The position numbers and the translations under genes were made by a program. Positions 39,404-43,536 of a DNA stretch of 64,000 nt are shown here, in pieces (the first letter of the stretch is position 1; each line of letters begins with the position of its first letter). Source of the DNA: Gammaproteobacteria bacterium (GTDB lineage: Bacteria > Pseudomonadota > Gammaproteobacteria > VBWC01); the NCBI GenBank assembly GCA_023266115.1, contig JAHFRU010000002.1:186001-250000 (forward strand). Reading direction: 5' to 3'. Under the pieces are notes generated by a model. That model was not told the DNA's origin. It saw nothing but the letters and a program-made list of their open reading frames with translations, and ran no database searches.

Positions 39404-41227
39404 ATGGCACATACACAAAGGCATGATAGTTCGGTGACGATAGTCCCAGGCAACACTCAGGCGGCAACGATTGATCGATGGATCGACGCGGCCTTGCAAC
39501 ACCACCTAGCCGGCCGTTTGCCCGATGCCGAGGCGCTGTATCGCCAGGCACTTGTGGAGCAACCCGATCATCCGGATGCACTGCATCTGCTCGGGTTTGT
39601 GGCGTATCAGTGCGGTCGGCACCAGCAGGCAGCCGAACTGATTTCTGCCGCCTTGCGCCACGTCCCCGACGCACCGGATTTTCATAACCATCTCGGTCTG
39701 GTCATGGCGGCGCTGGGCAGACCGGCGGACGCGATAGCGTGCTATGGCAATGCGCTGCGGCTGACGCCGGAATTTCCGGAAGCGCATAACAACCTCGGCA
39801 TCCTGTTGCGCGACGGCGGTCGTCTGATGGAGGCGGAAGCGCACTACCGTGCCGCGGTGGCGGCCCGCCCAGTGTTTCCGGATGCCTGGAATAACCTCGG
39901 CAACGTGTGTCGTGAACGCGGTGAATTCGATGCGGCCCTGGTGGCTTATCGCGAAGCGCTGCGACAACGGCCCGATTTCGCCGAGGCGCATAGCAATATC
40001 TTGTTTACACTGAGCCACTACTTGCTGGCTGATCCGGATCATCTGCTGCAGGAACATCACGGCTGGGACCGTGTGCATGGCGTAGCCGGGCGCGCACACG
40101 GCCACGCGCATCCGCTTCGCGGGGATCCGGAAAAACGCCTGCGTATCGGCTATGTATCGCCGGATTTTCGTTTGCACGCCACGAACAGTTTCTTTGAGTC
40201 GCTGATCGCCGCGCACACTCGCGACGCGGTAGAGATTTTCTGTTACGCCGAAGTATCCCGGCCGGATGCGGTGACAGAGCGCATCCGTGCGAACGCTGAC
40301 GGTTGGTGCAGCACCGTGGGGCTGGCGGATGATGCGCTCGCGCGGCAGATTCGCGACGACGGTATCGATATTCTGGTCGATCTGGCCGGGCATACGACCG
40401 GCAACCGGTTGCGCGCGTTTACCGGGAAGCCGGCGCCGATACAAGTATCTTATCTCGGCTACTGCGCGACGACTGGCCTGGCTGCGATGGACTACTGGAT
40501 TACCGACCGGGTGATTCACCCGCCCGATACGATCGAACGAGCGGTCGAAGCGATCATCCGTTTGCCGCGCTGCTGGGTCACCTACCGGCCGCCGATGGAC
40601 GCGCCGCCGGTTCGTTTACCGGCACGCAGTGGTATTACCTTTGGCTGTTTTAACGAACGTTCCAAGATCACACCGGCCACGATCGCGCTGTGGAGCAGTA
40701 TCCTGCTCGAACTGCCTGATGCGCGCCTGGTGCTCAAGGCGCGCCAGTACGCCGATGACAGTGTCCGGCAGGCGATCAGCGATACCTTTACGCAGCACGG
40801 GGTGGCCGCATACCGGTTGGTGTTTCTGCCAGCTACCGGTTACCTCGATTACCTCGCCGCCTATCACGACGTCGATATCGCGCTGGATCCGGTACCTCGC
40901 GCGGGCGGCGTGACTACAGCGGACGCGTTGTGGATGGGCGTGCCGGTGATCACCTTGTGCGGGCAGCGTTTCATCGAGCGCCACGGCGCGAGCCTGTTGC
41001 GTGCCGCCGGCATGGGCGAGTGGATCGCCGTGACGCCGCGGGATTACGTTGACAAGGCGCTGGCGCTCGCGCGTGACCACGTGCAACGGCGTACTATGCG
41101 GCTGGCCCAGCGTGACCGTATGGCGGCGTCGCCATTGTGTGACGCATTGGCCCATGCGCGCGCCATGGAACGAATCTACCGGGACATGTGGCATGCGTAC
41201 GTGCGCAACACTGCCCTGACCTCATGA
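39404..41227 (+). CDS. TPR-GT41 protein O-glycosyltransferase (OGT/SPINDLY-like)
   Basis: 607 residues. About five TPRs (residues 25-200) precede a GT41 catalytic domain (about 235-600) of the O-GlcNAc transferase/SPINDLY type. Motifs are RIGYVSPDFRLH, ILVDLAGHTTGNRL, PIQVSYLGYCATTGLAAMDYWITD, FGCFNERSKI (the Lys matching the catalytic-site K842 of human OGT) and GGVTTADALWMGVPV followed by ERHGAS. GT41 enzymes put GlcNAc, fucose or other sugars on Ser/Thr of proteins bound by the TPR. In Caulobacter, FlmG, a TPR-glycosyltransferase, modifies flagellin. It overlaps the next GT41 gene as ATGA. Donor sugar unknown. Confidence 0.85.
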   Translation: MAHTQRHDSSVTIVPGNTQAATIDRWIDAALQHHLAGRLPDAEALYRQALVEQPDHPDALHLLGFVAYQCGRHQQAAELISAALRHVPDAPDFHNHLGLVMAALGRPADAIACYGNALRLTPEFPEAHNNLGILLRDGGRLMEAEAHYRAAVAARPVFPDAWNNLGNVCRERGEFDAALVAYREALRQRPDFAEAHSNILFTLSHYLLADPDHLLQEHHGWDRVHGVAGRAHGHAHPLRGDPEKRLRIGYVSPDFRLHATNSFFESLIAAHTRDAVEIFCYAEVSRPDAVTERIRANADGWCSTVGLADDALARQIRDDGIDILVDLAGHTTGNRLRAFTGKPAPIQVSYLGYCATTGLAAMDYWITDRVIHPPDTIERAVEAIIRLPRCWVTYRPPMDAPPVRLPARSGITFGCFNERSKITPATIALWSSILLELPDARLVLKARQYADDSVRQAISDTFTQHGVAAYRLVFLPATGYLDYLAAYHDVDIALDPVPRAGGVTTADALWMGVPVITLCGQRFIERHGASLLRAAGMGEWIAVTPRDYVDKALALARDHVQRRTMRLAQRDRMAASPLCDALAHARAMERIYRDMWHAYVRNTALTS

Positions 41228-43536
41228 GCGTCAACTGGCATATCGCGGGATCGCGGCTCGACAAACTGCTGGACGATGCGGTGGCGCTGCATCAGGCCGG
41301 AAATCTCGCCGCGGCAGATACCCTGTACCGCGAGGCATTGGCGATTGACAGGCAACTTCCCGGCGCACTTTACGGTGCCGGCGTGGTCGCTCATCAGCTG
41401 GGCCGCAACGGTACGGCGATAGAATTACTCGATGCGGCACTACGCCATCGTCCCGATGAACCGGCCTGGCTGAACATGCGCGGTCTGGTGTATGCGGCAA
41501 TCGGCCGGATCGAGATGGCGCTCGGGGACTTTCAGCGTGCCATCCGGCTCAAGCCTGATTTCGCCGAGGCCTACAACAGCATCGGTGTGACGCTGCGCAA
41601 GCAGGATCGGATCGATGAGGCGATTGAGTATTACCGGCAGGCGATTGAATTTCGCCCGGACCTTGTTATGGCGCATAACAATCTTGGCAACGCGCTCAAG
41701 AGCAAAGGTGACCTCGGCGCAGCGTTAACCCATTATCGCCACGCCTTGACACTGCAGCCGGATTTCGTTGAGGCGATCAACAATCTCGGTACTGTCTACA
41801 CGATGCAGGGTGCGCTCGACGAAGCGCGCGTCGCATTCGAAAGAGTACTGCAGCTGCGGCCGGAATACCCGGATGCACTGAATAATCTTGGTGCGGTTTA
41901 TCAGAAGCGGGGAGACATTGCGGCGGCGCGGCAGTGCTTCGAACGCGCGCTCCAGATCAGTCCGGGATTCGCCGCCGCGCACGCGAATCTGGCTTCCGTG
42001 CTCAATGCGCAGGAGGATTTTTACAATGCGATCGAGTCTTGCCGCCAGGCACTGGAGATTGCGCCGGAATTTCCGGAGGCCTATTTCAACCTTGGCATTG
42101 CGTTCAAGGATCTCGGTTTGCCGCTGAAGGCGCTGAAGTACTTCGAAACCGCCGTGAAACTTCGACCGACCTACGCCGGCGCCTATAACGGCATCGCCAA
42201 CATCTGTCGCGACCAGGGGCAATTCGAGCTTGCTGGAACGTTCTATCGCGAAGCGTTTAGCGTTGATCCAACGAACCATGAAGTACATAGCAATCTCCTG
42301 TTTACCATGAGCCATCACGTGATGACCACTCCGGAAGCGTTACTGGAGGCGCATCGTGACTGGGCTGCGAGCCATTGCCATGAAGGACGGGCGCATCGGT
42401 ATACGCACTCTCCCGCGACGGCCCATGGCGGGCACCGGTTACGTATCGGCTATGTGTCACCGGATTTCCGCCGGCACGCCGCCGCCTTTTTTCTGGAGCC
42501 GCTGCTCGCGGCCCACGACCGGCGGGTCGTCGAGATTTATTGTTATGCCGAACTTGGTCGCACCGATCAGGTGACCGCGCGCTTTCGTCAGTCCGCGGAC
42601 GCCTGGCGCGACACCGCCGGGATGAGCGACACGCAGCTGGCCCGACAGATCGTCGATGACCGGATCGATATCCTTGTTGATCTGGCCGGGCATACCGCCG
42701 GCAATCGGTTGACGATGTTTGCCTTCAAGCCGGCACCGGTACAGGCGACCTATCTCGGCTACTGTGCGACCACCGGCCTGGAAGAAATCGATTACTGGAT
42801 CAGTGATGACGTGATACATCCGGCGGATACCCGCGAGCTGGCGGTGGAGAGCATCCTGCGGTTGCCGCGCTGCTGGGTGAGTTACCAGACGCCGGTCGAT
42901 GCGCCGGCGGTACAGGTCCCGCAGCACGATCACGTTACGTTCGGCTGCTTCAACGACCGCAGCAAGATCTGCGCCGAGGTGGTCGGTGTCTGGAGCCGGA
43001 TACTCGAACGCGTCGCCGGTTCGCGGTTGATCCTCAAGGCGCGTCAGTACGCCGATGCCGATATCAACGCCGAGCTTGCCAGCCTTTTTCGGCAGCATGG
43101 TATCGACGCGGCGCGCATCGAATTCCAGCCATTGTCGTTGCCGGAGGAATATTTTTCCTGTTATCACGCGATCGATATCGCGCTCGATCCGTTCCCGCGG
43201 CACGGCGGCGTTACCACGGCGGATGCCTTGTGGATGGGCGTGCCCGTGGTGACGCTGATCGGCGAGCGGTTCATCGAACGGCATGGCGCCAGCCTGCTGG
43301 CGGCAATCGGCGCACAGGACTGGATTGCCCAGGACCCCGACCACTATATCGAGATCGCCGTGGCGTTGGCGGCGGATCCCGGTCGGCGTCGCGTGTTGCG
43401 CCTGACGCAGCGGCAGCGCATGCGCGAGTCGCCGTTGTGCGATCCGCAGGGATTGGCCAGGGCGATGGAGGGGCTCTATCGGCGGATGTGGCGCCATTAC
43501 GTCGAATCGGCGCATGGTTCAACTCCCGCTTGCTAG
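41224..43536 (+). CDS. TPR-GT41 protein O-glycosyltransferase, tandem paralogue
   Basis: 770 residues: about ten TPRs (residues 10-370), then a GT41 domain (about 395-765) closely like that of the gene before it. Shared motifs are RIGYVSPDFRRH, ILVDLAGHTAGNRL, TYLGYCATTGLEEIDYWISD, RLPRCWVSY, FGCFNDRSKI and HGGVTTADALWMGVPVVTL-x-GERFIERHGASLL. The two genes are tandem duplicates that differ mainly in TPR number, which could change the protein target. The ATG at 41224 overlaps the previous stop; an ATG at 41188 inside the previous gene is less likely. Flagellin is the likely but unproven substrate. Confidence 0.85.
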   Translation: MSVNWHIAGSRLDKLLDDAVALHQAGNLAAADTLYREALAIDRQLPGALYGAGVVAHQLGRNGTAIELLDAALRHRPDEPAWLNMRGLVYAAIGRIEMALGDFQRAIRLKPDFAEAYNSIGVTLRKQDRIDEAIEYYRQAIEFRPDLVMAHNNLGNALKSKGDLGAALTHYRHALTLQPDFVEAINNLGTVYTMQGALDEARVAFERVLQLRPEYPDALNNLGAVYQKRGDIAAARQCFERALQISPGFAAAHANLASVLNAQEDFYNAIESCRQALEIAPEFPEAYFNLGIAFKDLGLPLKALKYFETAVKLRPTYAGAYNGIANICRDQGQFELAGTFYREAFSVDPTNHEVHSNLLFTMSHHVMTTPEALLEAHRDWAASHCHEGRAHRYTHSPATAHGGHRLRIGYVSPDFRRHAAAFFLEPLLAAHDRRVVEIYCYAELGRTDQVTARFRQSADAWRDTAGMSDTQLARQIVDDRIDILVDLAGHTAGNRLTMFAFKPAPVQATYLGYCATTGLEEIDYWISDDVIHPADTRELAVESILRLPRCWVSYQTPVDAPAVQVPQHDHVTFGCFNDRSKICAEVVGVWSRILERVAGSRLILKARQYADADINAELASLFRQHGIDAARIEFQPLSLPEEYFSCYHAIDIALDPFPRHGGVTTADALWMGVPVVTLIGERFIERHGASLLAAIGAQDWIAQDPDHYIEIAVALAADPGRRRVLRLTQRQRMRESPLCDPQGLARAMEGLYRRMWRHYVESAHGSTPAC

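Follow-up and report, generated by a model that had tools for sequence, protein, structure and literature searches.

Paired putative SPINDLY-like GT41 glycosyltransferases with a predicted Arg/Trp donor pocket in a gammaproteobacterial flagellar gene cluster

The 64,000-nucleotide stretch of DNA analysed here (the window; positions 186001–250000 of contig C46 in a 3.1 Mb gammaproteobacterial assembly) contains a flagellar gene cluster in which two adjoining genes, GT41-1 and GT41-2, encode family GT41 glycosyltransferases with N-terminal tetratricopeptide repeats (TPRs). We consider it probable that the two proteins are active, cytoplasmic, SPINDLY-like O-glycosyltransferases that modify Ser/Thr residues of filament proteins, above all the flagellin FliC, before export, with dTDP-L-rhamnose as the most likely donor. 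A role in protein O-glycosylation had been suggested in an earlier note made from this DNA alone; the GT41 identity of the proteins and their flagellar setting are supported, and that role, predicted from sequence and context, is a likely one.

Results

GT41-1 (39404–41227, plus strand; 607 amino acids) consists of five TPRs and a GT41 catalytic domain, and GT41-2 (41224–43536 from its ATG, plus strand; 770 amino acids, or 782 from an alternative GTG at 41188) of ten TPRs and such a domain, as defined by the open reading frames, Pfam matches, a repeat-register scan and, for GT41-1, an AlphaFold model. Both reading frames are open and match PF13844 far above its cut-off of 25 bits (172.9 bits, E 1e-50, for GT41-1; 178.3 bits, E 3e-52, for GT41-2), and both proteins also match TPR families. 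The repeats of GT41-1 start at residues 23, 57, 91, 125 and 159, while those of GT41-2 recur once per 34 residues from 24 to 330, one of the ten being detected only out of register. Thus, the two GT41 genes and the contrast of about five against ten TPRs described in the earlier note are borne out, as are its four shared motifs (GYVSPDFRxH, LGYCATTGL, FGCFN[ED]RSKI and ERHGASLL), which are present in both proteins, and its translational coupling: the ATG of GT41-2 (41224–41226) overlaps the TGA of GT41-1 (41225–41227) in an ATGA (41224–41227, plus strand) that is the same in G001, the sole congener among the genomes compared. The catalytic domains share 57% identity. Pairwise dN/dS between the window's genome and G001, a single two-genome comparison, is 0.24 for GT41-1 and 0.18 for GT41-2, so that both genes have apparently been kept for function; they are under purifying selection and look functional.

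By sequence comparison, the best solved relative across the whole catalytic domain is Arabidopsis SPINDLY (SPY). In the predicted fold of GT41-1 (mean predicted local distance difference test score, pLDDT, 89.0; predicted template modelling score, pTM, 0.84), the same relationship is seen: the first eight Foldseek rows are SPY chains, and VIA-align superposes the model on SPY 8dth_A with Z 50.8 and a root-mean-square deviation (rmsd) of 2.0 over 585 residues, against Z ∼33 and an rmsd over 6 for human OGT. The pair is therefore SPINDLY-like, not OGT-like, as far as sequence and predicted fold are concerned, and only the SPINDLY half of the original 'OGT/SPINDLY-type' label can be retained.

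To assign SPY numbers to the active-site residues, 213 GT41 domains were aligned together with SPY and TtOGT. Both enzymes retain the equivalents of SPY H495, K665 and K689, K665 being the essential phosphate-site Lys of GT41 and K689 the guanine contact of the SPY clan. The A731 position is Ala in GT41-1, Cys in GT41-2 and Ser in the G001 orthologue of GT41-2, and SPY T747, T748 and E752 are replaced by Gly, Val and Asp in both. According to PMC10027727 and PMC9715652, K689/A731 versus L866/R904 separates GDP from UDP donors and Y744 versus C917 separates fucose from GlcNAc; the latter paper proposes that the single residue Y744/C917 may drive donor choice in GT41. At this key sugar-selecting position the pair has neither the Tyr of SPY, where it contacts fucose, nor the Cys of OGT. 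Both enzymes have Arg, encoded by CGC at 40898–40900 in GT41-1 (residue 499) and by CGG at 43198–43200 in GT41-2 (residue 671 in GTG numbering), both on the plus strand. The trio of the OGT/SEC clan (Leu, Arg904 and Cys917) is likewise unmatched, being Lys, Ala or Cys, and Arg in the pair.

Arg744 is found in 19 of the 213 domains, a share that is overstated because the collecting profile was built from Arg-type members, and all 19 fall within a single gammaproteobacterial clade (support 95 in a quick tree of 76 rows and 84/92 in a tree of 23 rows). All 19 have Trp at SPY position 606, compared with Arg606 in 135 of the 161 Tyr744 domains, and the group is further marked by Ala at 751, Cys or Phe at 595, His at 613 and Glu at 770. 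The nearest row outside the Arg clade in both trees comes from an Opitutaceae metagenome-assembled genome (L075) with three neighbouring GT41s that have Trp606 and either Tyr or Phe at 744. This combination suggests a possible intermediate on the way to the Arg-type pocket, in which the change at 606 came first. No Arg744-type GT41 group is described in the titles and opening lines of abstracts found, most subscription journals and preprints lying outside that coverage.

The window's genome contains five GT41 genes by profile search, with one further copy on each of contigs C5, C16 and C6 in addition to the pair; hence the two adjoining copies of the earlier note are real and are part of a larger set. 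In the 23-row tree, which adds the C6 copy and leaves out the G001 orthologues of the C5 and C16 copies, their domains being too short, GT41-1, GT41-2 and the C5 and C16 copies form one clade with support 99/99 and the C6 copy falls outside. The quick tree holds 74 of the 213 catalytic domains (at most one per giant protein, and without the C6 copy) and two references, TtOGT and SPY, which do not form a single outgroup. GT41-1 and GT41-2 are thus, on phylogenetic grounds, paralogues of one lineage, and an origin of their domains from different lineages is contradicted. Neither is closer to the other than to the C5 and C16 copies: their sister grouping has a support of only 34/8, and the alternatives that join either GT41-1 or GT41-2 with the C5/C16 pair are kept by approximately unbiased (AU) tests (p 0.477 and 0.234). 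The duplication proposed in the earlier note therefore stands as paralogy within a lineage, a tandem sister pair being neither shown nor rejected. The GT41-1, GT41-2 and C5+C16 lines are separated by ∼0.9 to 1.0 changes per site, compared with 0.06 to 0.10 for orthologues in the window's genome and G001, which places the duplications long before these two genomes diverged.

The flagellar context is clear from the gene order. The plus strand of the window carries flgI, flgJ, flgK, flgL, rmlB, rmlA, rmlC, rmlD, fliC, flaG, fliD, fliS and fliT, followed by a TPR protein gene on the minus strand and then by GT41-1, GT41-2, tPilZ (43514–44227, plus strand, identified by a match to an atypical cyclic di-GMP receptor domain), fleQ, fleS and fleR, so that, as the earlier note held, the pair is embedded among flagellar genes, between fliT and tPilZ-fleQ; the names fliE, fliF and fliG were assigned from position. 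The rml genes form the complete set rmlBACD between flgL and fliC, as in a flagellin glycosylation island: rmlB (dTDP-glucose 4,6-dehydratase, 27020–28081), rmlA (nucleotidyltransferase, 28078–28965), rmlC (dTDP-4-dehydrorhamnose 3,5-epimerase, 28910–29551) and rmlD (29548–30423), all on the plus strand. The likely acceptor, FliC (30654–32084, plus strand), has a centre in which 73 of 248 residues (29%) are Ser or Thr; FlgL (25685–26878, plus strand) and FliD (32667–34730, plus strand; 22.6% Ser/Thr) are possible substrates.

The TPR protein is encoded divergently from GT41-1 (35784–39155, minus strand; 1123 amino acids) and has weak GT9 and pyruvyl-transferase-like C-terminal parts, the GT9 match being barely above its cut-off (23.3 versus 22 bits) and the polysaccharide-pyruvyl-transferase match below it (22.6 versus 25.3 bits). 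The neighbouring 'TPR-GT9 fusion' of the earlier note is accordingly marginal in its GT9 part. G001 keeps the order flgL-rmlBACD-fliC-flaG-fliD-fliS-fliT-[TPR/GT9-like]-GT41-GT41-tPilZ-fleQ, with 84–99% protein identity for most genes (82% for FliT and 67% for FlaG). G055 has the order fliC-flaG-fliD-fliS-fliT-tPilZ-fleQ-fleS-fleR-fliE-fliF, and two GT41s precede its fliC. Since fliT runs into tPilZ there with no GT41 in between, these two gene orders suggest that the window's TPR/GT9-like and GT41 genes were inserted into a standard cluster, between its fliT and its tPilZ.

Among 369 gammaproteobacterial genomes, GT41 occurs in 82, FliD in 186 and both in 55 (odds ratio 2.4, p 0.0007, with no correction for kinship). 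A GT41 gene lies on the contig of fliD and within ∼12 kb of it in at least nine of these 55 (G000, G001, G055, G071, G083, G094, G200, G212 and G295, judged by eye among the matches listed). Assuming three GT41 loci per 3.3 Mb genome, the rough probability of this linkage by chance is 2e-5, or 5e-4 with two related pairs merged. Fourteen flagellum-linked loci, counting the window's genus as one and including acidobacterial, planctomycete, Paenibacillus and Massilia examples, were read in detail. Ten of them have at least two GT41 domains, located in one polypeptide in three cases, and Arg744 occurs only in the window's genus. FliD is present in 10 of the 12 genomes with an Arg-type GT41. Neither the window's genome nor the nine linked genomes gave a match to Maf (PF01973), which was found in just one of 22 genomes tested, G337, in the vicinity of fliD and of a gene for NeuB; because these three lie close together, flagellin modification in G337 is probably of the Maf type. 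They are located at ∼94–108 kb of its contig C4, and its Arg-type GT41 is elsewhere in the genome.

Individual loci show further arrangements. An acidobacterial locus (L083) has two GT9-like genes (one of 1186 amino acids), two GT41s, FliC and FliD, the same set as in the window. In a planctomycete (L078), a flagellin gene is followed by five consecutive GT41 genes, and in L199, L200 and L090 polypeptides of ∼1450–1480 amino acids with two fused GT41 domains are encoded beside flagellin genes. Desulfobacterota proteins of ∼6300–6400 amino acids have several GT41 domains each (L058, L059 and L064). Within the window, 4716–11612 contains a series of DegT aminotransferase, GT2, formyltransferase-epimerase, polysaccharide deacetylase and PMT-type genes, which, going by domain order, we take to be a complete arnBCADT operon for 4-amino-4-deoxy-L-arabinose (L-Ara4N) modification of lipid A.

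Discussion

The acceptor, donor and order of action that we infer are as follows. The TPR superhelix would hold unfolded or FliS-bound flagellin while the GT-B domain transfers a sugar to it from a nucleotide donor; the enzyme with few TPRs and the one with many would act at different sites or successively; and the donor would be dTDP-L-rhamnose from the rmlBACD operon, with a GDP-sugar as the main alternative. Flagellin O-glycosylation is favoured because rmlBACD lies between flgL and fliC, the centre of FliC is rich in Ser/Thr, no Maf was found and GT41 is linked to fliD.

Several observations weigh against this proposal. FliD is missing from 27 of the 82 GT41-bearing genomes. In the loci read, the Arg-type GT41s outside the window's genus are not beside flagellar genes, so the Arg clade is not bound to the flagellum, and other flagellum-linked GT41 loci have no adjoining rmlBACD. 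The genome's only strong rmlD may serve lipopolysaccharide (LPS), and K689/A731-like residues suit guanine better than thymine. Scans for sigma54 and sigma28 patterns gave no convincing promoter 5' of GT41-1 (92 matches versus 77 expected for the sigma54-like pattern; 9 versus 10 for the sigma28-like pattern). A second sigma28-like pattern was over-represented (34 matches versus 17 expected); of its three best matches, two are in GT41 coding repeats and one in the fliF frame, and because these are within coding regions no promoter is claimed.

The three lines of evidence on the donor (neighbourhood, base pocket and sugar-pocket Arg) disagree, and dTDP-L-rhamnose is favoured weakly. The rmlBACD genes between flgL and fliC are kept in G001, and rmlD among them is the only strong one in the window's genome (348 bits, the next match having 78). 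Pseudomonas syringae flagellin carries a rhamnose-rhamnose-viosamine glycan (PMC3927599). It is rather unlikely that the enzymes have the same flagellin role with a GDP-sugar as donor, whether GDP-L-fucose, the donor of plant SPINDLY, or a related sugar, and that rmlBACD supplies LPS or some other glycosyltransferase encoded in the cluster. Both enzymes retain K689, the guanine contact, and have no equivalent of the R904 of OGT (Ala in GT41-1, Cys in GT41-2), with roles as given in PMC10027727, and the genome encodes GDP-mannose 4,6-dehydratase (gmd) and GDP-L-fucose synthase (fcl), both over equivalog cut-offs. However, the Tyr744 that SPY requires for fucose is Arg and T747/T748 are Gly/Val, and gmd and fcl are on a different contig from the pair. 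The presence of rmlC was considered as a marker of Arg-type genomes and dropped as uninformative, since it occurs in 23 of 28 genomes tested; a second rmlC-like gene of the window's genome is on contig C35, beside a glucose-1-phosphate cytidylyltransferase gene.

It is also unlikely that the targets are non-flagellar, with the pair acting as general cytoplasmic O-glycosyltransferases whose position in the cluster is incidental. Two close paralogues of the pair are in non-flagellar loci of the same genome and many GT41 genomes are without flagella, but GT41-fliD linkage is well above the rough chance estimate, GT41-flagellar linkage recurs in distant phyla, and it is kept within the window's genus. 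A nonulosonic (sialic-like) acid or other acidic sugar, its carboxylate bound by the new Arg, is disfavoured and very improbable as donor: Arg is at the sugar-contact position in both enzymes, a NeuB/NeuA/NeuC-type cluster is on contig C39 of the window's genome and Caulobacter FlmG uses pseudaminic acid (PMC7591256), yet G001 keeps both GT41 genes with no NeuB match, and true NeuB is unassociated with the Arg type (5 of 12 Arg-type genomes versus 4 of 16 other GT41 genomes, Fisher p 0.43). The C39 locus (L196–L197) encodes NeuB, a UDP-GlcNAc 2-epimerase and a CMP-transferase within a polysaccharide cluster.

For the preferred donor, dTDP-L-rhamnose, the pocket residues allow a more specific and decidedly tentative suggestion, which we regard as doubtful: that the donor pocket was rebuilt by inversion of an Arg/aromatic pair, from Arg606-Tyr744 in SPY to Trp606-Arg744, and that the flagellar members of an undescribed subfamily use dTDP-L-rhamnose. 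We know of no GT41 that uses a donor of the dTDP-L-rhamnose class. If the suggestion is true, the flagellar Arg-type members are GT41 protein O-rhamnosyltransferases. Arg744 would represent a natural third state beside the Tyr of SPY and the Cys of OGT, with co-varying neighbours, at a residue (Y744/C917) that is proposed in the two SPINDLY structural papers to drive donor choice by itself. With two paralogues of different TPR length and a candidate donor pathway nearby, the donor code can be tested, as can the role of TPR length, in a bacterial system that is small and soluble and has an obvious acceptor. Should the donor be neither GDP-fucose nor UDP-GlcNAc, the automatic label 'O-GlcNAc transferase, SPINDLY family' is wrong for the Arg clade.

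Among known systems, Arabidopsis SPINDLY, a GDP-fucose protein O-fucosyltransferase of GT41, is nearest in sequence and fold and shares the TPR-then-GT41 order and K665/K689; unlike it, the pair has Arg for Tyr744, Trp for Arg606 and Gly/Val for T747/T748, and is in a bacterial flagellar cluster. Human OGT, XcOGT and TtOGT share the GT41 fold with TPRs but are more distant in fold and sequence, and OGT uses UDP-GlcNAc with Cys917 and Arg904. Flagellin glycosylation islands of Pseudomonas resemble the window in having sugar genes between flgL and fliC and in flagellin rhamnose, and differ in their glycosyltransferases, Fgt1 and Fgt2. Caulobacter FlmG, as described by Ardissone et al. 2020 (PMC7591256), is a TPR-GT-B enzyme that binds flagellin via its TPRs and modifies it with pseudaminic acid. 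Compared by description, it has the same N-terminal TPRs, C-terminal GT-B domain and cytoplasmic O-modification of flagellin; since its donor is pseudaminic acid, whereas G001 keeps the pair without NeuB, the model invoked in the earlier note holds as an analogy only. In enterobacterial flagellin glycosylation islands, 14 of 42 types carry a GT41 with a SPINDLY-family (COG3914) domain and six types have rhamnose genes, as reported by De Maayer and Cowan 2016 (PMC4875605). Like the window, these islands have GT41 beside flagellin genes and, in some cases, rhamnose genes; they differ in that they are from other taxa and nearly all of their GT41s are reported to carry methyltransferase domains. 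The occurrence of a TPR-GT41 pair among flagellar genes is thus of an already described kind and, GT41 in such islands having been published, the flagellin-glycosylation part is not new. What is new is the Arg/Trp donor pocket in GT41, which, judged from the aligned residues, marks a small gammaproteobacterial clade.

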